Shown here: positions 49,916-60,976 of the stretch, one piece after another | Layout: every line of letters starts with the position of its first letter | Numbering within the stretch: position 1 is the stretch's first letter | Assembly (NCBI RefSeq): GCF_000255295.1 | Contig: NC_017030.1 | Coordinates: forward strand, 3,348,001 to 3,412,000 | Direction of reading: 5' to 3' | DNA: 64,000 bases | Source of the DNA: Corallococcus coralloides DSM 2259 | GTDB lineage: Bacteria; Myxococcota; Myxococcia; Myxococcales; Myxococcaceae | Position numbers and translations under genes: made by a program | The notes under the pieces: generated by a model | The model's input: only the letters and a program-made list of their open reading frames with translations | The model's database searches: none | What the model was told of the DNA's origin: nothing

Positions 49916-50536
49916 ATGAATCGAGATTCAAAATCTGAGGCGCCCGTCAAAAAGCTGCGTTCTCGTCTGAAGGAGGCCACCGCTGACGCCATCCTGGCGG
50001 CGGCAGCGGCGGTGTTCGCTCGCGACGGCCTGCATGCGGCGAAGATGGAGTCCATCGCCGAGCAGGCAGGCGTGTCGGTGGGGACGCTCTACAACCACTT
50101 CACCGACCGCGCGGCCCTGCTGGACGCGCTGCGCGCGAAGCGGCGGCAGTTGATGCTGGACCGGCTGGACGCGGCCCTGGCCCCCGTGGAGGGGCGGCCC
50201 GCGCGCGAACAGCTGCGCGCCTTCGTGACGGCGCTGTTCGCCCATGCGGCGGAGCGCGACGCGTTCGTGCGGGTGCTGGTGCAGCTGCCGGAGGATCCGG
50301 CGCGCAAGAGCCGCATCCTGGCGGAGCTCAGCCGGCGCGTGGCGGTCATCCTCGACCGGGGCATCCAGGCTGGTGAGGTCCGCGCGGAAGGGCGCGCGTT
50401 CCATCCGAATCTCCTGATGGGAATGGTGCGCGGCGCATTGGACCGCCTGCGCGAGGACGACGCCGCGAACCCTCCGGCAGCCGCCTGGGCGGAGGAGATC
50501 CTCCGCGTCTTCTTGAAGGGCATCGAGGTCGACTGA
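49916..50536 (+). CDS. TetR-family transcriptional regulator
   Basis: 206 residues. A TetR_N helix-turn-helix (about 20-66, ADAILAAAAAVFARDGLHAA then AEQAGVSVGTLYNHFTDRA) precedes a helical ligand domain. It probably represses the efflux pump genes behind it, which start 2 bases after its stop. A TGAATC-GA-GATTCA palindrome overlaps its own start codon and is a candidate operator (49917-49930). The inducer would be a pump substrate. Confidence 0.92.
   Translation: MNRDSKSEAPVKKLRSRLKEATADAILAAAAAVFARDGLHAAKMESIAEQAGVSVGTLYNHFTDRAALLDALRAKRRQLMLDRLDAALAPVEGRPAREQLRAFVTALFAHAAERDAFVRVLVQLPEDPARKSRILAELSRRVAVILDRGIQAGEVRAEGRAFHPNLLMGMVRGALDRLREDDAANPPAAAWAEEILRVFLKGIEVD
49917..49930. promoter_or_regulatory. 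Candidate TetR operator over the tetR start
   Basis: TGAATC and GATTCA (arms 6 bp, 2-base centre) begin one base inside the ATG. It is downstream of the predicted promoter, so binding would block transcription. Its place within coding sequence means some of it may be chance. Confidence 0.4.
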
Positions 50537-50537
50537 C

Positions 50538-52169
50538 ATGGCGACAGCCGTCGCAACACCGGAGGTCCTGGCGCAAGTTGCGCCCAAGGCCCCCGTGAAC
50601 AAGTGGCTCGTCACCTTGTCGGTGACGTTCGGCACGCTGATGGGCGCCATCGACTCGTCCATCGTGAACGTGGCGCTGCCGCAGATTCGCGGCGCGGTCG
50701 GCGCCACGGTGCAGGAGATCACCTGGGCCACCACCGGCTTCGTCATCGCCACGGTGATGGTGATGCCGCTCACGGGCTTCCTGGGCCGCATGTTCGGCCA
50801 GAAGCGCGTGTACCTGGCGTGCCTGGTGCTCTTCGTCGCGGGCTCGTTCCTGTGCGGGCTCGCGTGGAACCTGCCCACGCTGGTGCTCTTCCGCTTCCTG
50901 CAAGGGTTGGGGGCCGGCGCGTTGCAACCCACCGAGCAGGCCATCCTCCGTCAGACGTTCCCGCCCAAGGAGCAGGGCACCGCGATGGCCATCTTCGGCA
51001 TGGCCGTGATGGTGGGCCCGGCCATTGGCCCCACGCTGGGCGGCTACATCGTGGACAACTGGCACTGGTCCTGGATCTTCTTCATCAACGTGCCCGTGGG
51101 CATCCTGGGCTTCTTCATGGTGGCCCGCTTCGTCCAGGAGGACGAACAGCTGCGCGCCACCGCGCGCCAGGAGGCCGAGAAGCAGCGCAAGCACATGGAC
51201 TGGTCCGGCATCACGCTGCTCTGCATGGGCCTGGCCACGCTCCAGTACTTCCTGGAAGAGGGACAGGCGGATGACTGGTTCGAGTCCCCCATCATCGTCA
51301 TCTGCGCGCTGCTCTCCGCCACGTGCCTCATCGCCTTCGTCATCCGCGAGCTGACCGCGGAGGCCCCCGCGGTGAACCTGCGCCTGTTCAAGGACCCGGT
51401 GTTCGCGTCCGGCACGCTCCTGGGCGCGCTGGTGTTCGCGGTGCTCATGGCCAGCATGTTCCTCTTGCCGGTGTTCATGCAGGAGCTCTTGGGCTTCACC
51501 GCGACGCAGTCCGGCTTCTCGCTGATGCCGCGCACGCTGGTGATGATGCTGATGATGCCCATCGTCGGGCGGCTGTACGGCAAGGTGCCGGCGCGCATCC
51601 TGGTGGGGGTGGGCATCGTGTTCGCGGGCTTTGGCGCCTACGAGATGAGCCACTTCTCGCTCGCGACCGGCTCCAACAACATCATCGCGGCCATCGCGCT
51701 GCAGGGCGTGGGCTTCAGCCTGATGTTCGTGCCGCTCAGCGCCACGGCGCTCGGCAGCATCCCGCGTGAGCGGATGGCGGACGCGACGGGCCTCAACTCC
51801 CTCTTGCGCCAGATTGGCGGGTCCGTGGGGCTGGCCATCTTCACCACGCTGCTGTCGCGCTACACCGTGCTGTCCAAGGCCTCCATCGCGGCGCACCTGA
51901 ACCCGGAGCGGTGGGAGGTGGCCAGCCGCATGGCCTCCACGCAGAAGGGGCTCATGCAGCACGGTCTGGACGCCGCGAGCGCCAGCATGGCCAGCCTCCA
52001 GCTGATGGTGGGCAACGTGTCGCGGCAGGCCATGGTGCTCGCGTTCGACAAGCTCTTCGTTCTGGCGGCGCTGATGTTCGTGGTGGTGCTGCCGCTCATC
52101 TACTTCCTCAAGGACCCCCCGAGCGTCGGGGGCTCCCACGAGAAACCGCACATCGACGTGGAGATTTAA
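50538..52169 (+). CDS. DHA2-family MFS efflux transporter (EmrB type)
   Basis: 543 residues with 14 predicted membrane segments. The MFS motif GPAIGPTLGGYIVDNWHWSW and FFINVPVG are characteristic of EmrB/QacA drug:proton antiporters. It sits between the TetR regulator and the EmrA-type fusion protein with gaps of 1 and 3 bases, so it is one operon. It would export drugs across the inner membrane and work with the fusion protein and a TolC encoded elsewhere. Confidence 0.94.
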   Translation: MATAVATPEVLAQVAPKAPVNKWLVTLSVTFGTLMGAIDSSIVNVALPQIRGAVGATVQEITWATTGFVIATVMVMPLTGFLGRMFGQKRVYLACLVLFVAGSFLCGLAWNLPTLVLFRFLQGLGAGALQPTEQAILRQTFPPKEQGTAMAIFGMAVMVGPAIGPTLGGYIVDNWHWSWIFFINVPVGILGFFMVARFVQEDEQLRATARQEAEKQRKHMDWSGITLLCMGLATLQYFLEEGQADDWFESPIIVICALLSATCLIAFVIRELTAEAPAVNLRLFKDPVFASGTLLGALVFAVLMASMFLLPVFMQELLGFTATQSGFSLMPRTLVMMLMMPIVGRLYGKVPARILVGVGIVFAGFGAYEMSHFSLATGSNNIIAAIALQGVGFSLMFVPLSATALGSIPRERMADATGLNSLLRQIGGSVGLAIFTTLLSRYTVLSKASIAAHLNPERWEVASRMASTQKGLMQHGLDAASASMASLQLMVGNVSRQAMVLAFDKLFVLAALMFVVVLPLIYFLKDPPSVGGSHEKPHIDVEI

Positions 52170-52172
52170 GAC

Positions 52173-53405
52173 ATGGCAACGACAACGACAGCTCCCCAAC
52201 TCGTCCCCGAAGCGGCGCCCGCGCCCGCCTCCGCGGCGCAGGCGAAGCGCGGCAAGCGGGGCTTCCTCATCCTCGGCGGTGTCGTGGCGGCCATCCTGCT
52301 GGCCATTGGCGGCTTCAAGATCGTCACGGCCGGACAGGAGACCACCGACGACGCGCAGGTGGAGGCGGACGTGGTGCCCCTGGCCGCGCGCGTGTCCGGC
52401 CCCGTGGTGAAGGTGGCCGTGCTGGACAACGCCACCGTGCACCAGGGCGACGTGCTCCTTCAGATCGACCCGCGTCCGTATGAGGCGCGCGTGAAGCAGG
52501 CGGAAGCCGAGCTGGAGTCCGCGCGTGCCCAGGCGGCCGCGGCGGACGCGCAGGCCACGGTGGCGGAGGCCGGCGCGAAGGGTGGCCTGTCCAGCGCGAA
52601 GGCGCTCGTGTCCACGAGCACGTCCGCGGTGAGCGGCGCCCAGGCGCAGGTGGCGGCGGCCCGCGCGGCGCTGACCCGCGCGGAGGCCCAGGCCCGAAAG
52701 GCAACGCTGGATCTGGATCGGACCCGGAGCCTGCGTCAGCAGAACGTGGTGGCGCAGAGCGCGCTGGATGACGCGCAGACGGCCAATGAGACGGCGCAGG
52801 CCGCGCTCGAAGGTGCTCGCGCGCAGCTCTCCCTGGCGGAGGAGGGCCGGCGCACCGCGGAGAGCAAGGTGGCGGAGGCCCGGGGCCAGCTGGACGTGAG
52901 CGCCCCCATCGACGAGAAGATCGCCGCCGCCCAGGCCAACGCGTCGCTGGCGCACGCGCGGGTGAAGGGCGCGGAGGCCGCGCTCGACCAGGCGAAGCTC
53001 CAGCTGGAGGACACGCGCATCGTGGCTCTGGCGGACGGCCAGGTGTCCAAGCTGTCCGTGCACGCGGGCCAGCTGCTCACCCCCGGGCAGGCCGTGGCGG
53101 AGCTGGTGCCCACGACGACCTACGTGGTGGCCAACTTCAAGGAGACGCAGGTGGGCCACATGCAGCCCGGCCAGCGCGTGGAGGTGGAGCTGGACGCCTT
53201 CTCCGGTGAGAAGCTGGAGGGCAGGGTGGAGAGCCTGTCCGGCGGCACTGGCGCCCGCTTCTCCCTGCTGCCGCCCGACAACGCGTCCGGCAACTTCGTG
53301 AAGGTGGTGCAGCGCGTGCCCGTGCGCATCTCCTGGGTGCACCCGCCGCAAGGAATGGCCCTGCGCGCCGGCCTCTCCGCCGACGTGACGGTGCACACGA
53401 AGTAG
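52173..53405 (+). CDS. HlyD/EmrA-family membrane fusion protein
   Basis: 410 residues. One N-terminal membrane segment (about 30-52, GFLILGGVVAAILLAIGG) is followed by the lipoyl-like half GDVLLQIDPRPYEARVKQAEAEL, a long coiled-coil hairpin (about 105-290, Ala/Gln/Glu-rich) and the second half near VADGQVSKLSVHAGQLL. Such proteins bridge EmrB to a TolC channel. No TolC gene is adjacent. A classic terminator follows. Confidence 0.93.
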   Translation: MATTTTAPQLVPEAAPAPASAAQAKRGKRGFLILGGVVAAILLAIGGFKIVTAGQETTDDAQVEADVVPLAARVSGPVVKVAVLDNATVHQGDVLLQIDPRPYEARVKQAEAELESARAQAAAADAQATVAEAGAKGGLSSAKALVSTSTSAVSGAQAQVAAARAALTRAEAQARKATLDLDRTRSLRQQNVVAQSALDDAQTANETAQAALEGARAQLSLAEEGRRTAESKVAEARGQLDVSAPIDEKIAAAQANASLAHARVKGAEAALDQAKLQLEDTRIVALADGQVSKLSVHAGQLLTPGQAVAELVPTTTYVVANFKETQVGHMQPGQRVEVELDAFSGEKLEGRVESLSGGTGARFSLLPPDNASGNFVKVVQRVPVRISWVHPPQGMALRAGLSADVTVHTK

Positions 53406-53633: not shown

Positions 53634-55643
53634 ATGAGCACGACCTACAAGATTCACCCGGCCATCGGCGTGGCCCGCGTCGGAGACAGCGAGGACTACT
53701 ACCTGGGGCCTGAGGAGGCAGGAGGGCTTCCGCTGGAGGTGGCGGGCGGCAGCGTGACCCGGTTCCGCGATGCCAGCATGGCGGTGCGCAGGCAGGCGGC
53801 GCGCTTCCAGATCCACGCCTACGACTCGCCCGGCTCCAACGGGCGCAGGGTCCAGCCGGGTGAAGGCGGAATCAAAGACATCCGCTGGACGGTCCACCTG
53901 GCCAACAAGAAGTCCGCCTGGTACGAGTTCCGGCAGCAACAGGGCGCGGACGGCACCTACGCCGTCAACCACCCGCTGCGAAATCCTCGCACCGTGGGGA
54001 ATGACCGCAACGCGCTCATCCTCGACGCGGGGCCGCGCACCGTCACCTGCCTGGGGAGCGCGGGCGGTCCCACCACCGTGGAGTGCGCGCTGCTCCCGGC
54101 GTCGGCCCGCCCTTCGGGGCTTCTCCCCGAAGGCAGCGACATCACCACCCTGGGGAAGCTCGTCACGGATGCCCGGGGCTACCTCCACGCGGTGGGCGGC
54201 TACGGCAGGTCCGGCGTGTCGGTCCGCTACGACATCACGAGTGGACTGCTGGAGAACTGGGCGCGGTACCACACGCTGGAAGACGTCAAATGCCTGCACG
54301 ATAAGGCGCCGGACATCCTCGTCGCGCTGAAGGCCATCGCGGACATCGGCTACGACACCCAGGAGGCGTTCGATGCCGCCGTCGACTCCGTCCTCGCGGA
54401 GCCGGGTCTGGGGCTCGTGTCCGAACAGAAGGCCGCCGCGAAGGAGTTCATCGACAAGATGGCCTACCCCCAGCCCCGGCTGGACACGTACGCCAACAAC
54501 ACCTTCTGGTGGGATGACATCTCGGACGGGCCCGTCACCGCGACGCTCGTCATGGATGACGACTCCGAGCACGAGGTGGAGTTCCCCGCGTGGGTGGTGG
54601 TGGGACCGCCCGGGTACGCGCCGCAGATCCTCAACGTCATCACGCTCTACGACACGCTCTTCGACACCTTCGTCACCCAGCGGGGGCTGGTCCCCGGGCT
54701 CTACCAGAACGGGCAGTTCCAGCAGGACTACACGCCCAACTTCCAGGGGGAGCTCCTTCCCATCCTCAGCCGCCCCGCCGCTTACCAGTGGGTCGCGGAC
54801 GTGGGCCCGCAGGGCAATGGCAGGCACGACGCAATCCAGGGCGGCAACCTGGGCCCCCGTTTCCTTCAGAGAATCCGGAACCCCGAGGACGTCAACGCGC
54901 CGACGCCGGACCTCATGCCGAAGATGGCGGGCGACAACCCCATCTCCGAAACCATCCCCCGGAAGTTCCTGAGCCTCACGCGGACCCAGTACTTCCTCCT
55001 CCAGCAATACAGCGCCGGCAAGGTCGACCACTCGTCTCCCAAGGCTCCCGCGTCGGAGGGAGCGCGGTTGGACCGCGCCGTGCTGGAGAACTGCGTAGGC
55101 GGCGCGTTCTGCCCGGGCATCGAGATGACGTGGATTGCCCGGGACGCGAACTTCTTCCAGGAGGACCCGGCCGCAGGCTTCCGCTTCAAGCACCGCGCCA
55201 GGCCCCAGGGCCAGCCGCTTCAATGGAACATCAATCCGCACGACGGGCTGGGCCTGGAGCCGGGGGATGCCAGCAAGTACATGGCGCTGCCCTGGCAGGC
55301 CGACTTCAACGAGTGCTCCAACCAGACCGTCCAGGGGACATCGCTCTGGTGGTGGCCCGCGCAGCGGCCCTACTTCGTGAGCTACCTGGGCGACGACCAG
55401 CAGTGGCACCAGGACTATTGGACGCGTCCGACGGACATCAACTTCGAAACGGACGAGGACATGGTCTTCCATTGGAAGGAATTGGGCTTCGTCCTCAAGC
55501 GGTCGGATGCGCCCCCCTCCCAGCAGGGCCCTGAGGCCGCGCCAGGACTGCCGCCCGCGCCCACGTTCATCGAGGTGGAGCGGACGTACGCGCCCGCCAC
55601 GGGCCAAGAGGAACCGGCCCTCGCCAAGGTGGCCAACTCGTGA
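53634..55643 (+). CDS. lodA: LodA-like cysteine tryptophylquinone (CTQ) amino acid oxidase
   Basis: 669 residues. LodA family enzymes oxidise amino acids using a CTQ cofactor made from their own Cys and Trp. The N-terminal YKIHPAIGVARVGDS and C-terminal LPWQADFNE...LWWWPAQRPYF are family hallmarks. Candidate CTQ residues are C487 (LENCVGGAFCPGIE) and W554 (LPWQADF), 67 apart, close to 65 in Marinomonas LodA; C493 and W572-574 are alternatives. No signal peptide, as in known LodA. ATG at 53634 with GAGGAG upstream. Its TGA overlaps the lodB GTG by 4 nt. Substrate (Lys, Gly or other) is not determinable here. Confidence 0.9.
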   Translation: MSTTYKIHPAIGVARVGDSEDYYLGPEEAGGLPLEVAGGSVTRFRDASMAVRRQAARFQIHAYDSPGSNGRRVQPGEGGIKDIRWTVHLANKKSAWYEFRQQQGADGTYAVNHPLRNPRTVGNDRNALILDAGPRTVTCLGSAGGPTTVECALLPASARPSGLLPEGSDITTLGKLVTDARGYLHAVGGYGRSGVSVRYDITSGLLENWARYHTLEDVKCLHDKAPDILVALKAIADIGYDTQEAFDAAVDSVLAEPGLGLVSEQKAAAKEFIDKMAYPQPRLDTYANNTFWWDDISDGPVTATLVMDDDSEHEVEFPAWVVVGPPGYAPQILNVITLYDTLFDTFVTQRGLVPGLYQNGQFQQDYTPNFQGELLPILSRPAAYQWVADVGPQGNGRHDAIQGGNLGPRFLQRIRNPEDVNAPTPDLMPKMAGDNPISETIPRKFLSLTRTQYFLLQQYSAGKVDHSSPKAPASEGARLDRAVLENCVGGAFCPGIEMTWIARDANFFQEDPAAGFRFKHRARPQGQPLQWNINPHDGLGLEPGDASKYMALPWQADFNECSNQTVQGTSLWWWPAQRPYFVSYLGDDQQWHQDYWTRPTDINFETDEDMVFHWKELGFVLKRSDAPPSQQGPEAAPGLPPAPTFIEVERTYAPATGQEEPALAKVANS

Positions 55644-56812
55644 GCGAGGACTCCTGCGACGTGGCCATCATCGGGGGCGGCCCCGCGGGCGCGGCAATGG
55701 CCGTGGCCTTGCGGAGGAAGGCGCCGTCGCTCTCCGTCACCCTGGTCGAACGAACCACCTATGACGCCCCCCGACTGGGAGAGACCCTGCCTCCGGACGT
55801 CCGCCTGCCGCTGTCACGGCTGGGCGTCTGGGAAGGCTTCCTGCGCGACGGACACCTCGCCTCCCGCGGCACGGCGTCATGCTGGGGCAGGGCGGAGCCG
55901 GGCTTCCATGACACGATGATGTCCCCCTGGGGCTCCGCGTGGCACCTGGACCGGACGCGCTTCGACGAACGGCTGAGCGTCGAAGCCGCCCAGCAGGGCG
56001 CTCGGGTGCTTCGCGCGACGACCCTGTTGGATTCGGAGTCACTGGGACGCGACGGCTACCGGCTCCGCCTGGCCCATGAGGCAGCAGACCCCAGCACGCT
56101 GCGGGCGCGCTTCGTCGTGGACGCGACGGGAAGCAAGGCAACCTTCGCCTCCGCACGAGGCGCGCGGCGGCTGGTGAGCGACCGCTGCTTCGCCGTGTAT
56201 GGCGCCTTCCAGCTTCAGGGCGGCGCGGCCTTCCCCACCCACGCGCTGGTGGATGCCTGCCCGGAGGGCTGGTGGTACTCGGCGTTGCTGCCGAGGGGGC
56301 GGGTCGTCGTCGCGCTCGTCGGCGATGGCGACTCCCTGCGCGGCTTGCGCTGGGCCACGCCCGCTTCCTGGATGAACCTGCTGAGGCAGGCGCCGGCGAC
56401 CTGGGCGCGGCTGGACGTCTGTGACTTCGCCGGCGAGGCGCTTGTCGCGGTGCCCGTGCTCGTCGGTCAGTTGGACCGGCCGTGGGGGGAACAGTGGCTC
56501 GCCGTGGGCGACGCGGCCTGCACCTATGATCCGCTGTCCTCCCAGGGCATCACCAAGGCGTTGGACTCCGCGCTCCTGGCCGCCGACGCGCTGGAGCGCT
56601 GCCTGCGCGGCGACGCGGAGGCGCTCCAGGCCTACGCGTCCACGCTGAACGCGCGGTTCCAGGACCATCAACGCACCCGCGCGGCCTACTACCGCCAGGA
56701 ACAGCGGTGGCCCCAGGCCCCCTTCTGGAAGAACCGGTGGGAGTCGCTGCCCGCTCCCGCCGCACCCCCAGCGCAGCTCCGCCGCCCCCACTCCACCGAG
56801 GTGAACCCATGA
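55640..56812 (+). CDS. lodB: LodB-like flavoprotein required for CTQ formation
   Basis: 390 residues from GTG, overlapping lodA by 4 nt (GTGA). FAD-binding GxGxxG is VAIIGGGPAGAAMAVAL at the N-terminus; LGETLPP and the C-terminal VGDAACTYDPLSSQGITKAL are tryptophan-halogenase-like. LodB proteins hydroxylate or otherwise modify the LodA Trp to allow CTQ formation. The stop overlaps the ATG of the cytochrome (ATGA), coupling all three genes. Confidence 0.9.
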   Translation: MSEDSCDVAIIGGGPAGAAMAVALRRKAPSLSVTLVERTTYDAPRLGETLPPDVRLPLSRLGVWEGFLRDGHLASRGTASCWGRAEPGFHDTMMSPWGSAWHLDRTRFDERLSVEAAQQGARVLRATTLLDSESLGRDGYRLRLAHEAADPSTLRARFVVDATGSKATFASARGARRLVSDRCFAVYGAFQLQGGAAFPTHALVDACPEGWWYSALLPRGRVVVALVGDGDSLRGLRWATPASWMNLLRQAPATWARLDVCDFAGEALVAVPVLVGQLDRPWGEQWLAVGDAACTYDPLSSQGITKALDSALLAADALERCLRGDAEALQAYASTLNARFQDHQRTRAAYYRQEQRWPQAPFWKNRWESLPAPAAPPAQLRRPHSTEVNP

Positions 56813-59800
56813 AGACGAGGTATCAGCGTCATGTGATTGTCGCGGCGGGCGCCATGCTCGCCATCACGGCCGCGGTGGTCGTGCGGAGCAGGGAGCCCAG
56901 GCCCGCGGTCCTGGCCACGAGCGGCAGTGGAGGGGATGGCCTCGTCCCGCCTCCCTATCCCGTGTTCCCGCGAGGCAATGCCCTGCTCACGCCCCTCGCC
57001 GAGTCCAGCGACGAGGCCCAGGCCTTCCTGAACTTCTACACGAAGCAGTTGGGCGTTCAGCTGCCCAGGATCCAGAGCGGCGACCTGGTCAAGCTGCCGC
57101 CCCGGAACCTGGACATCGCGCACAACGGACTGAACCTCGGCAGCCAGGACTTCAACTCCTCCCTGGTGTGCCAGTCCTGCCATGACTCGGATTGGAAGGC
57201 CCAGGGCAGCGACCTGCCGGAGATGGCGTTCTGGCAACAGCCCACGGTCAACAGCCTCTGGCCGAGCGGTGGCGCGGGCCCCAAGAACCTGTCCGCCAAC
57301 TGGTCCCCGTTCGGAGACTGGAGCGCGTCCATCAAGGCCCTGGCGGGCAGGGACCCTGTCTTCCTCGCCCAGGTGGAGACGACCCGTTCACTGTCTCCGC
57401 ACCAGCCCTATCAGGTGGACCAGCTCTGTCTGCGATGCCATTCCCCCCTGGCGGAGCGCCAGGCCCTGGCCAACAACGCCCCGTTCGACCACTTCACCCT
57501 CTACGCGACGCCCGAGGGAGCCCCCTACAAGAACCCGTTCCCCTCGGAGTCCGCGGCGGCTTCGCAATACGCGACCTACGGCGCGCTGGCCCGGGACGGA
57601 CTCTCCTGCGCCGTCTGTCATTCCATGGCGCCGAAGGAGGGCCAGCCCTGGAGTGGCGCCGACTACAGCTTCTTCTATGGCTCCGACGGAGACCTCTTCG
57701 GCGCAACCGTGTCGGACCGGCTGGTCAGCGCGGAGGAAAAGAAGACGCTCACGCCGCCGTCCTTCCCCTTCACCTCGTCCATGAACCTGCACCCCGGCGC
57801 CATCCTCGGGCCTGACTTCGGCCTCAACGCGAAGCCCATGGCCGCGGCGGGGGTGAGCCTGGAGACCGCGGCGCACGTGGACGGACACAGCTACCTGCGC
57901 GACTCCATGGTCTGCGGCGCCTGCCACGTCGTCATCCTGCCCAAGGTGCCCACCAACTACCGGCCGGGCATGCCCATCTCCGAAGCGAGCGAAGGCTACG
58001 AGCGCCCCGCGAGCTGCGACTCCAGCAGGACGACCTTCGACGCCAAAGGCGACTTCACGAAGGACCCCTGTGTCGCGCTCGCCTATGAGCAGACCACCTA
58101 TTTCGAGTGGCTCAACAGCGGCTACCCCGACTCCAAGACGACGTGCCAGGGCTGCCACATGCCGCTCACCTCGCCGTCATCCCCCCACGACAACCGCGTG
58201 TACGTGGCGCAGTACAACGATGACCTGGATCCCTTCTACAAAGGCAGCCCGCCCCCGGTGGCGCGCGAGTACAACCGGCACACGCTGCTGGGCATCAACC
58301 TGTTCGTCCACGAGATGTTCCAGCAGTTCCCGGACGTGCTCGGGCTGGACTTCTACCTGTCGAAGGACTCACGCATCCCGCCCTATCTCCAATCCCCAGA
58401 CATCCTGAACCGCACGCCCAACCTGGTCCCCAATCCGGGCGCCGAGGATGGCAATACGGCGGGCTGGAGCGACCACAGCGCCATCGCCGCCGTCCAGAAG
58501 CTCCCGGCAGAGCAGGGACGCTCCATCCACCCGAGCCACGGCCGCTACTTCTTCCAGCTCAGTGAGGGCAGCGCGACGCTGAGCATCGACCTCAGCCGCT
58601 ACCAGGCCGCCCTCCAGAAGGCCGGCGACAAGACGACCCTCCTCTGGGGCGCCACCGCCTGGTGCGACAAGCTCTCCTGCGGAGAGCTCGTCGTGCGCAC
58701 CTTCAACGCGCAAGGCACCCTGGCGTCCACGACGTCTCCGCTCGCGGTCGACCCGGGACAGTCGAGGTGGCAGGCGCGTCAGGCGACCACGGCCCTGGGC
58801 GCGGGCATCCAGCGGCTGGAGCTTGGCTTCACCGGCCGGAGTGGCGAGGTGCTTCTCCTGGATGACCTCTTCCTCGCCCTGCGCTTCCCGGATGGCACCG
58901 TCGCACCGCTGACGGATGCCAGCCGCAACTACGTGGTCGCGCAGAACCTGCTCAACGCCGAGCAGTCCATCCTGGACCTCGCGTACAGCACGGCCCAGGG
59001 CTCCTACAATCCACAGCTCCCCGCCGTGCAGATCTCCCTGGGAAACCTGTCCACCGACAACGGCACGCTGAGCGTCCCCGTCACGCTCATCAACAACGCG
59101 GGTCACAAGTTCCCCAGCGGCGCGGGCTTCCGCCGGGCGTTCATCCAGTTCGAGGTCCTGGATCCGTCCGGCAACGTGCTCTGGGCTTCGGGACAACCGA
59201 ACGCGCAAGGCGCCATCTGCAATGGCCGCTGCAATGCCAATGGCGACAACATCCTTGTCAGCGAGTTCTCGGCCGCCCCCGGTCAACTCCAGCCGCACTA
59301 CCAGAGCCTCCAGCGGCAGGACCAGGTTCAAATCTACGAGGTCCGCGTCATGGACGACACGAAGAAGGTCACCAGCCTGGAGCTCCAGCAGTTCAAGGAC
59401 CTGAAGGACAACCGGATCCTCCCCGCGGGCTGGAAGCCGCCGAGCCTGCGCAAGTCCGGCGAGCTTCAGCTGGGGCTGGACCTCCACCAGTTGGCGCAGA
59501 TCACCATGCCCCTGAGTGAGGTGCAGGGAACCCTCCCCAGCATTGAGAGTGATCCGGACTACCCCAGCGACAGCCATCCCCGGGAGGCCGAGGGCGAAGA
59601 CACGCTCGTGTACCAGGTCCCCCTGGCGGAGATTTCTTCCTGGGCCTCCATCCGGGTCCGGCTGAACTACCAGAGCATCCCTCCGGGCTATCTGGGCGCG
59701 CGGTTCAAGGACGCGCTCCAGGGAGGCCAGAAGCCGGGGCCCGCCATGAGCCGGCTCATCTACATGAGCAGCCACCTCAACACGAAGACGTCCATTCAGG

Positions 59801-59886
59801 GCCAGACCTACGGCGCAACCCAACCCACGGAGGTCATGAACAACTGGTCCATGGTCCTGGGTGAGGCCCGGGTGACGAAGCGCTGA
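56809..59886 (+). CDS. Pentaheme cytochrome c family protein in the lod operon
   Basis: 1025 residues. An N-terminal membrane segment (about 9-26) can act as signal or anchor. Five CxxCH heme sites are seen: Cys121-His125 (CQSCH), 207-211 (CLRCH), 267-271 (CAVCH), 369-373 (CGACH) and 446-450 (CQGCH). The C-terminal half contains NNAGHKFPSGAGFRRAFIQF, a motif seen in large multiheme cytochromes, plus a CBM-like sandwich (about 540-700, PNPGAEDGNTAGWSDHS). Start ATG overlaps lodB by 4 nt, so it is in the same operon. I infer it accepts electrons from LodA or its product side in the periplasm; this is not established for LodA proteins. Confidence 0.9.
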   Translation: MKTRYQRHVIVAAGAMLAITAAVVVRSREPRPAVLATSGSGGDGLVPPPYPVFPRGNALLTPLAESSDEAQAFLNFYTKQLGVQLPRIQSGDLVKLPPRNLDIAHNGLNLGSQDFNSSLVCQSCHDSDWKAQGSDLPEMAFWQQPTVNSLWPSGGAGPKNLSANWSPFGDWSASIKALAGRDPVFLAQVETTRSLSPHQPYQVDQLCLRCHSPLAERQALANNAPFDHFTLYATPEGAPYKNPFPSESAAASQYATYGALARDGLSCAVCHSMAPKEGQPWSGADYSFFYGSDGDLFGATVSDRLVSAEEKKTLTPPSFPFTSSMNLHPGAILGPDFGLNAKPMAAAGVSLETAAHVDGHSYLRDSMVCGACHVVILPKVPTNYRPGMPISEASEGYERPASCDSSRTTFDAKGDFTKDPCVALAYEQTTYFEWLNSGYPDSKTTCQGCHMPLTSPSSPHDNRVYVAQYNDDLDPFYKGSPPPVAREYNRHTLLGINLFVHEMFQQFPDVLGLDFYLSKDSRIPPYLQSPDILNRTPNLVPNPGAEDGNTAGWSDHSAIAAVQKLPAEQGRSIHPSHGRYFFQLSEGSATLSIDLSRYQAALQKAGDKTTLLWGATAWCDKLSCGELVVRTFNAQGTLASTTSPLAVDPGQSRWQARQATTALGAGIQRLELGFTGRSGEVLLLDDLFLALRFPDGTVAPLTDASRNYVVAQNLLNAEQSILDLAYSTAQGSYNPQLPAVQISLGNLSTDNGTLSVPVTLINNAGHKFPSGAGFRRAFIQFEVLDPSGNVLWASGQPNAQGAICNGRCNANGDNILVSEFSAAPGQLQPHYQSLQRQDQVQIYEVRVMDDTKKVTSLELQQFKDLKDNRILPAGWKPPSLRKSGELQLGLDLHQLAQITMPLSEVQGTLPSIESDPDYPSDSHPREAEGEDTLVYQVPLAEISSWASIRVRLNYQSIPPGYLGARFKDALQGGQKPGPAMSRLIYMSSHLNTKTSIQGQTYGATQPTEVMNNWSMVLGEARVTKR

Positions 59887-59891
59887 AACAC

Positions 59892-59923
59892 AGCGGCCAC
59901 CGGCTCAAGAGCCGGTGGCCGCT
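59892..59923. terminator. Bidirectional terminator between the lod operon and the convergent gene
   Basis: Perfect 14-bp arms AGCGGCCACCGGCT and AGCCGGTGGCCGCT around CAAG. It lies between the stops of the two convergent genes and can end both; the minus-strand side has the better T run (GTGTTTC). Confidence 0.8.
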
Positions 59924-59938
59924 TTCACTCCTCAAGGC

Positions 59939-60976
59939 TTAGCGGAAGACGGTGGTGTGGGAGCCCAGCACGATGCCGCGCTTGCCCGCCAGCGCCTTGC
60001 TCCGCTCGGGAGTCATCCCCAGCTGCTCCGGCGTGAAGAGCCGGCCGTAGAGCCGGTGGTCGGAAGAGACGAACGGGAGGACCCGGACCGTGATGGACAT
60101 CCCCGGAAGCGGGGCGTGGTTGTTGGACCAATACGAATAGTCGATGGTCGTCTTGTAGTTGGCCGGTACGAGGCAGTCGATCCCCGTGTGCCAGTTGCGG
60201 TTGCCATCCTGGTCCGGAAGCGTCTCGGGCACCGTGGTCTTCCCCAGGCTGATGAGCGGCGAAGGCCCCGGAGTCCCCGCCGAGAAGGCGACGCTCGCCC
60301 CCGCGGGGACGTTCACGCACTTGATGTCGAAGGTCACCATCGCGGTGGAGGAGCCCTGATCGAAGTTGATGCCCTTGGTGGTGTAGTCCGGCTTGTTGGC
60401 ATCCACGATGGTGACGTTCCGCCAGCCGAACCCCGGGTTGTCCAGGACGAACTCCGTCAGCTGGTCCATGTTGCCCACGGCCGTGGTGGGAACGGGGTTC
60501 GGGTGCGCCGTGGTGGAGACCCGGGAGATGAGGCAGTAGTGGTCAGGGGTGGGGGCTCTCCAGACGAACGGGTTGTCCGTCACGGCGATCTTGCCGCTGT
60601 CGGCCTTGATGATGTTCTTGTTCCCGTTGTCGACGTTCTTGTCGCTGGTCTGCAACTCATTGTTCGCCCACAGGTAGGGGTACAAGAGCAGACTCGCCGG
60701 CACGGCATACAGCGACACGCTTCCGGACTGGGCGGCTCCCGCCAGGTTCTTGGCGCGCAGGTAGATGTAGTTGTCGCCGTCGTGGATCAGGTTCTGCCCC
60801 ACGTCCGAGCTGTAGTTCCCGGCGAAGAAATCCGCAGGATTGAGCGTGGGGCTGAGGCCCTGGGGGATGATGTCTGGCGATTGATAGGCAATGGTGTTCT
60901 TCGGCTCGTTCCCGAAGGTGCGCTCACCGGTGTCACCGGTGTTCACACGGAAGAACAAGTCATTGTACTGGGTCAT
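59939..60976 (-). CDS. Hypothetical protein, likely co-regulated with the lod operon
   Basis: 345 residues, no signal peptide. It has beta-rich character with motifs FAGNYSSDVGQNLIHDGDNY, YLRAKNLAGAAQSGSVSLYA, PDHYCLISRVST and GFGWRNVTIVD. The end is PERSKALAGKRGIVLGSHTT. I do not recognise the family. It converges on the lod operon terminator. Its upstream region holds the same 21-bp-spaced palindrome pair as lodA and a good sigma-54-like promoter, so it is probably switched on with lodA. It could be a secreted or structural partner, but this is inference. Confidence 0.8.
   Translation of the reverse strand: MTQYNDLFFRVNTGDTGERTFGNEPKNTIAYQSPDIIPQGLSPTLNPADFFAGNYSSDVGQNLIHDGDNYIYLRAKNLAGAAQSGSVSLYAVPASLLLYPYLWANNELQTSDKNVDNGNKNIIKADSGKIAVTDNPFVWRAPTPDHYCLISRVSTTAHPNPVPTTAVGNMDQLTEFVLDNPGFGWRNVTIVDANKPDYTTKGINFDQGSSTAMVTFDIKCVNVPAGASVAFSAGTPGPSPLISLGKTTVPETLPDQDGNRNWHTGIDCLVPANYKTTIDYSYWSNNHAPLPGMSITVRVLPFVSSDHRLYGRLFTPEQLGMTPERSKALAGKRGIVLGSHTTVFR

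Follow-up and report, generated by a model that had tools for sequence, protein, structure and literature searches.

LodA-like enzymes, which carry a cysteine tryptophylquinone (CTQ) cofactor, are annotated as H2O2-forming oxidases ('CTQ-dependent oxidase') and explained in terms of antimicrobial peroxide and biofilm dispersal. What, then, is the function of a gene for a c-type cytochrome with five haem motifs that directly follows a lodA-lodB pair in the myxobacterium Corallococcus coralloides DSM 2259? The three genes lie in a 64,000-nucleotide stretch of DNA (contig NC_017030.1, positions 3,348,001 to 3,412,000), called the window here, whose own numbering is used below; the genome carrying them is 10.08 Mb in size, in one contig. 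An initial annotation of the window had put forward the idea that this LodA variant can act as a dehydrogenase with a cytochrome acceptor. We favour this reading, on good comparative-genomic support for the coupling and with a probability of roughly 0.6: the cytochrome would accept electrons from the LodA-type quinoprotein, whose predicted activity is that of a functional dehydrogenase. A search of the open-access literature, with subscription journals outside its scope, found no paper joining LodA-like proteins and a multihaem cytochrome.

A LodA-type quinoprotein and its maturase

The operon comprises the following features:

53634-55643, plus strand: lodA-like gene, ATG start, 669 amino acids, LodA_N and LodA_C domains above cut-off
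55314-55316, plus strand: codon of Cys561, the expected CTQ cysteine (C516 of LodA), from alignment to 3weu
55353-55355, plus strand: codon of Trp574, the expected CTQ tryptophan (W581 of LodA), from alignment to 3weu and of relatives
55640-56812, plus strand: lodB-like gene, GTG start, 390 amino acids, best model NF038171
56809-59886, plus strand: pentaheme c-type cytochrome gene, ATG start, 1025 amino acids, five CxxCH motifs
59884-59927, plus strand: terminator-like hairpin directly 3' of the cytochrome gene, between convergent genes

Neighbouring genes overlap by exactly 4 nt, GTGA at 55640-55643 between lodA and lodB and ATGA at 56809-56812 between lodB and the cytochrome gene, so that the initial annotation had this layout right to the base. 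The hairpin (a 14-bp G+C-rich stem with no U-run; RNA fold -32.1 kcal/mol, z -4.65) stands between the stop codon of the cytochrome gene and the convergent gene beyond it, which makes the trio look like a single transcription unit. A scan for consensus promoters gave nothing above chance.

The first gene product matches Pfam LodA_N (E 3e-55, 188 bits against a curated cut-off of 26.3) and LodA_C (E 1e-40, 139 bits against 25), and its best solved relative is LodA (3weu/2ymw, E about 7e-71). The positions of Cys561 and Trp574 are occupied by Cys and Trp in all 87 LodA-family rows aligned: the CTQ cofactor residues are intact. With both domains, the cofactor pair and an adjoining gene for a lodB-like flavoprotein, the protein belongs to the LodA family. 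Its substrate cannot be assigned, since it scores 333.7 bits on the lysine 6-oxidase equivalog LodA (NF038172, cut-off 600 bits) and 175.2 bits on the glycine oxidase equivalog GoxA (NF038173, cut-off 750 bits). The lodB product finds its best model in maturase_LodB (NF038171; E 2e-75, 254.2 bits across the whole model, under the 400-bit equivalog cut-off) and scores 176.2 bits, under a cut-off of 240, on QhpG (NF049967), the maturase model of quinohemoprotein amine dehydrogenase (QHNDH). It is expected to be a CTQ maturase.

In Marinomonas mediterranea, LodA and LodB are a lysine epsilon-oxidase and its maturase. The window's genes share with LodA/LodB and GoxA/GoxB of that organism the LodA_N/LodA_C architecture, the CTQ Cys and Trp and a lodB gene directly downstream, but add a third gene, that for the pentaheme cytochrome. 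C448 of LodA is retained as Cys493, whereas the spacing of the CTQ Cys and Trp is 13 residues, compared with 65 in LodA, and there is an extra stretch at about residues 195-283. A published survey of the family places a C. coralloides LodA-like protein outside all group-I clusters and does not mention cytochromes (PMC4417212); this protein is probably the window's LodA or a close relative.

A pentaheme cytochrome of the c552 type

Features of the cytochrome gene product are:

56833-56883, plus strand: hydrophobic export or anchor segment, residues 9-25, from hydropathy and N-termini
57169-57183, plus strand: haem motif 1, CQSCH, residue 121, invariant in alignment
57427-57441, plus strand: haem motif 2, CLRCH, residue 207, invariant in alignment
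57607-57621, plus strand: haem motif 3, CAVCH, residue 267, invariant in alignment
57913-57927, plus strand: haem motif 4, CGACH, residue 369, invariant in alignment
58144-58158, plus strand: haem motif 5, CQGCH, residue 446, invariant in alignment
58402-58902, plus strand: inserted beta-sandwich resembling a carbohydrate-binding module (CBM), residues about 532-698, VIA-align Z 12-13 to CBM16 and other CBM-like chains

Attachment of haem c requires that a cytochrome be exported, and the N-terminus of this one is consistent with export; three relatives (L033, L036 and L010) have a lipobox-like Cys at the N-terminal segment. The five CxxCH sites that had been reported are all present, account for 10 of the 16 Cys residues and are unchanged in an alignment of 38 relatives, some as little as about 30% identical. 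This invariance, together with a gene order that recurs in two phyla, excludes chance. Beyond the motifs, H491 and H766 are invariant and M344 and M503 nearly so, and we infer that these four residues are distal haem ligands.

The cytochrome sequence alone matches no Pfam or NCBIfam family at E 0.001. Its AlphaFold model (predicted local distance difference test, pLDDT, 73; predicted template modelling score 0.74) matches the pentaheme c552 of Thermochromatium tepidum (5ze8) with Z 15.0 and a root-mean-square deviation of 3.2 Å over 352 of 385 residues, and a profile search finds the same structure at E 4e-9. Five CxxCH motifs and the same predicted fold are thus held in common with c552 and the ExtKL/Gsu2801 pentaheme family. 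Differences from c552, to which it is 22% identical, are the CBM-like insert, a longer N-terminus and the fixed operon partner. No clear role has been assigned to c552, which is grouped with Geobacter ExtKL, a proposed participant in extracellular electron transfer (PMC11976967). Among the aligned sequences the insert is restricted to myxobacterial members, with a gap in L038 (Rhodobacteraceae) and L039 (Gallionellaceae). A hexaheme paralogue is encoded in the same genome (G000:C1:3142755-3144389), about 260 kb upstream of the operon.

Conservation of the three-gene operon

We surveyed 189 Myxococcota genomes, Alphaproteobacteria in two samples (296 and 385) and one sample of 297 Acidobacteriota. 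A full-length cytochrome homologue, 51-100% identical, is encoded in 18 of the 189 Myxococcota genomes, and in 17 of these it lies directly 3' of lodA-lodB with short or no gaps. In the eighteenth (G146) the operon halves end at contig breaks where expected, and the trio is inferred across the break. The same trio is found in two Rhodobacteraceae genomes (L038 and L188); there were no others in the alphaproteobacterial and acidobacterial samples, and a plasmid search gave no full-length second example. The cytochrome is therefore conserved next to lodAB in relatives, the point on which the initial annotation had staked its reading, and chance adjacency can be rejected (18 of 18 genomes, and two phyla). 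Cytochromes of the trio type were always met beside lodAB and never apart from it; about 40 of the 58 Myxococcota LodA loci lack this cytochrome.

One further candidate, a hexaheme gene in G018 (L155), was rejected as a LodA-cytochrome operon, an opposite-strand gene sitting between it and lodB. One of the records grouped here with Myxococcota (L034/G138) is titled 'Comamonas sp. KCTC 72670' but has clearly myxobacterial sequence, and is probably misnamed.

One cytochrome core, several partners

Further clues to the function of the cytochrome come from its phylogeny and from the company kept by its relatives. All 20 LodA-linked cytochromes form one clade (Shimodaira-Hasegawa-like approximate likelihood ratio test, 92). 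Their LodAs do not: in a tree of 88 rows, the 16 pentaheme-linked LodAs of myxobacteria form a single clade (99) and the two from Rhodobacteraceae are placed elsewhere. One type of cytochrome has therefore been paired with two LodA lineages. A single shared LodA origin for all pentaheme pairings is rejected by the approximately unbiased test (p-AU 0.0004), the Rhodobacteraceae pair being on a long branch.

The LodA-linked clade is joined, with support of 100, by cytochromes from Gallionellaceae (L039) and Acidobacteria (L040), whose operons also encode a GMC flavoprotein dehydrogenase together with a small subunit (FAD-SLDH and GMC_oxred domains in L039, GMC_oxred in L040). The cytochrome gene is directly upstream of the GMC genes, which are of the type of gluconate or sorbitol dehydrogenase with small subunit; the enzyme there is flavin-based, whereas the window's LodA is a quinoprotein. 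In these two operons, to judge from gene context, the cytochrome is apparently the electron acceptor of the dehydrogenase.

More distant relatives are hexaheme proteins with a sixth haem in an N-terminal domain; in 12 of the 38 members scanned this domain matches Cytochrome P460. In L049, L052, L054 and others, of about 1000 amino acids, such a P460-like haem domain is joined to the pentaheme core. Their genes are mostly solitary (in Acidobacteriota, Bacteroidota, Alphaproteobacteria and two more genomes of the Gallionellaceae order), and a GMC pairing was not found to be a general rule for cytochrome relatives. From the P460-like, GMC and LodA contexts, the pentaheme core has partners of three kinds: a haem domain fused to it, an adjoining flavin dehydrogenase and an adjoining LodA. 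The hexaheme N-terminal domains are consistent with the core being a portable electron-transfer unit, and the simplest reading of the three contexts would be that it takes electrons from whichever redox enzyme it is paired with.

How might the cytochrome and LodA work together?

That the nearest other relatives of the cytochrome pair with GMC dehydrogenases speaks for an electron-acceptor role. A precedent is provided by QHNDH, in which CTQ is coupled to haem c (PMC7876137). The two systems are alike in having CTQ, a flavoprotein for Trp hydroxylation and haem c; they differ in that the window's quinoprotein is of the LodA type and its cytochrome a pentaheme of the c552 type, where QHNDH has the small cross-linked QhpC and a diheme alpha subunit. 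Radical-SAM, ABC-export, QhpC and diheme QhpA genes were not noticed beside the operon, although no model search for QhpC or QhpA was made.

From the gene organisation, the intact cofactor residues, the five haem motifs, the predicted c552-type fold, the conservation and the re-pairing across phyla, all of which are directly established, we infer a scheme in which the three genes would encode one redox unit. LodB would form CTQ in the LodA-type protein in the cytoplasm, and the mature quinoprotein would reach the cell envelope or exterior, like the LodA of Marinomonas, which is extracellular whilst LodB is intracellular (PMC2855505). There it would deaminate an amino acid, an amine or a peptide side chain, and the two electrons of reduced CTQ would enter the haem chain of the exported cytochrome in one-electron steps; their next destination would be the respiratory chain or an external acceptor. 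The LodA variant would then be a dehydrogenase with a haem-wire acceptor, in place of or besides being an H2O2-forming oxidase.

Several points weigh against this scheme. LodA export without a signal peptide is its weakest link: the LodA N-terminus is not hydrophobic and, by hydropathy and inspection of N-termini, no recognisable signal peptide is present in the LodA of any trio, whereas the cytochrome must be exported to acquire haem c. The meeting of the two proteins is accordingly assumed. No docking surface could be examined because the predicted LodA structure (pLDDT 46) was unusable and was discarded. To our knowledge, all characterised LodA/GoxA enzymes are oxidases, and no feature that we read in the LodA sequence rules out reactivity with O2. 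On the cytochrome side, the distal haem ligands are assigned by conservation alone, the GMC association is limited to two loci and most hexaheme relatives stand alone.

Alternatively, LodA could remain an H2O2-producing oxidase from which the pentaheme protein protects the cell, removing the product as a peroxidase or peroxide reductase. Many LodA-like proteins are indeed fused to catalase-like domains and others to ferritin-like ones (PMC4417212, Table 3), and the gene for an Azospirillum LodA, 44% identical, adjoins a ferritin-like gene and has an opposite-strand di-heme oxidoreductase gene in its vicinity. However, the fold of the cytochrome matches the c552/ExtKL-type family, whose members are treated mainly as electron-transfer proteins (PMC11976967), its nearest relatives share operons with GMC dehydrogenases and the small subunit, and there are enough conserved His and Met residues to fill every haem site, so that no open catalytic haem is evident. 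We regard this explanation as unlikely. Less probable again is that the cytochrome serves extracellular electron transfer on its own account, standing beside lodAB for the sake of shared regulation and receiving no electrons directly from LodA: hexaheme relatives are usually solitary and the modelled CBM-like insert suggests surface binding of its own, but no cytochrome of the trio type was met apart from lodAB, and two LodA lineages have come to be paired with it. The least probable of these explanations is that the cytochrome aids maturation by removing electrons in the last CTQ-forming oxidation, as has been suggested for the QHNDH alpha-subunit haems, proposed to carry out the final oxidation to CTQ after export (PMC7876137), and as MauG does for tryptophan tryptophylquinone; cytochrome and LodA are always linked here, but lodAB suffices for active LodA in Marinomonas and most LodA-like loci examined have lodB without a cytochrome.

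A second LodA-haem arrangement

The initial annotation had described a link between amino-acid or peptide oxidation and respiration, through a cytochrome acceptor, as not usual for the family. This needs qualifying: in another LodA clade, a gene for a protein with two CxxCH motifs lies directly 5' of LodA at 17 myxobacterial loci (L140-L154, L159 and L160) and one acidobacterial locus (L193); in the myxobacterial junctions that were read, roughly 15 nt separate the two genes. The diheme protein has motifs of the GCDTCHG and YCYRCHG type, with a fascin-like domain in some copies, and its sequence is not recognisably related to that of the pentaheme protein. It would represent a separate LodA-haem pairing, which points in the same direction as the trio.

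With slightly less than even odds, we propose more broadly that part of the LodA family consists of true dehydrogenases feeding exported multihaem cytochromes, that this arose on at least two occasions with the pentaheme protein and separately with the unrelated diheme one, and that it gives predatory myxobacteria an electron path, at the surface or outside the cell, from amine or peptide oxidation. If so, protein-derived tryptophylquinones would have evolved haem-coupled oxidation of amines or amino acids a second time, apart from QHNDH and methylamine dehydrogenase, and myxobacteria would gain an unexpected energy route from prey proteins or extracellular electron transfer. If a LodA branch feeds haem wires, the oxidase annotation would be wrong in many genomes. 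LodA proteins with and without the cytochrome offer a clean natural comparison of what decides between oxidase and dehydrogenase function in a quinoprotein.

Flanking genes and related loci

Downstream of the hairpin lies one further conserved gene:

59939-60976, minus strand: convergent gene, 345 amino acids, family unassigned, kept next to the trio in 13 of the 18 genomes that have one

The protein has no Pfam or NCBIfam match and no match in the PDB at E < 0.05. Its full-strength homologues are confined to genomes with the LodA-LodB-pentaheme trio (13 of 18), and this distribution makes it a possible fourth partner.

Just upstream of lodA (49916-53405) are genes for a TetR-like regulator, then an EmrB-type major facilitator superfamily transporter and an HlyD/EmrA-type protein. 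These are kept in the nearest Corallococcus relatives alone, and we therefore place them outside the module.

Elsewhere, Azospirillum brasilense plasmid p3 (L253, 5995-9043) has a LodA-like gene, 44% identical to the window's LodA, with a ferritin-like gene ahead of it and, close by on the opposite strand, a di-heme oxidoreductase gene. The LodA-like gene of L183 likewise follows a ferritin-like gene and has a di-heme oxidoreductase gene in its vicinity.

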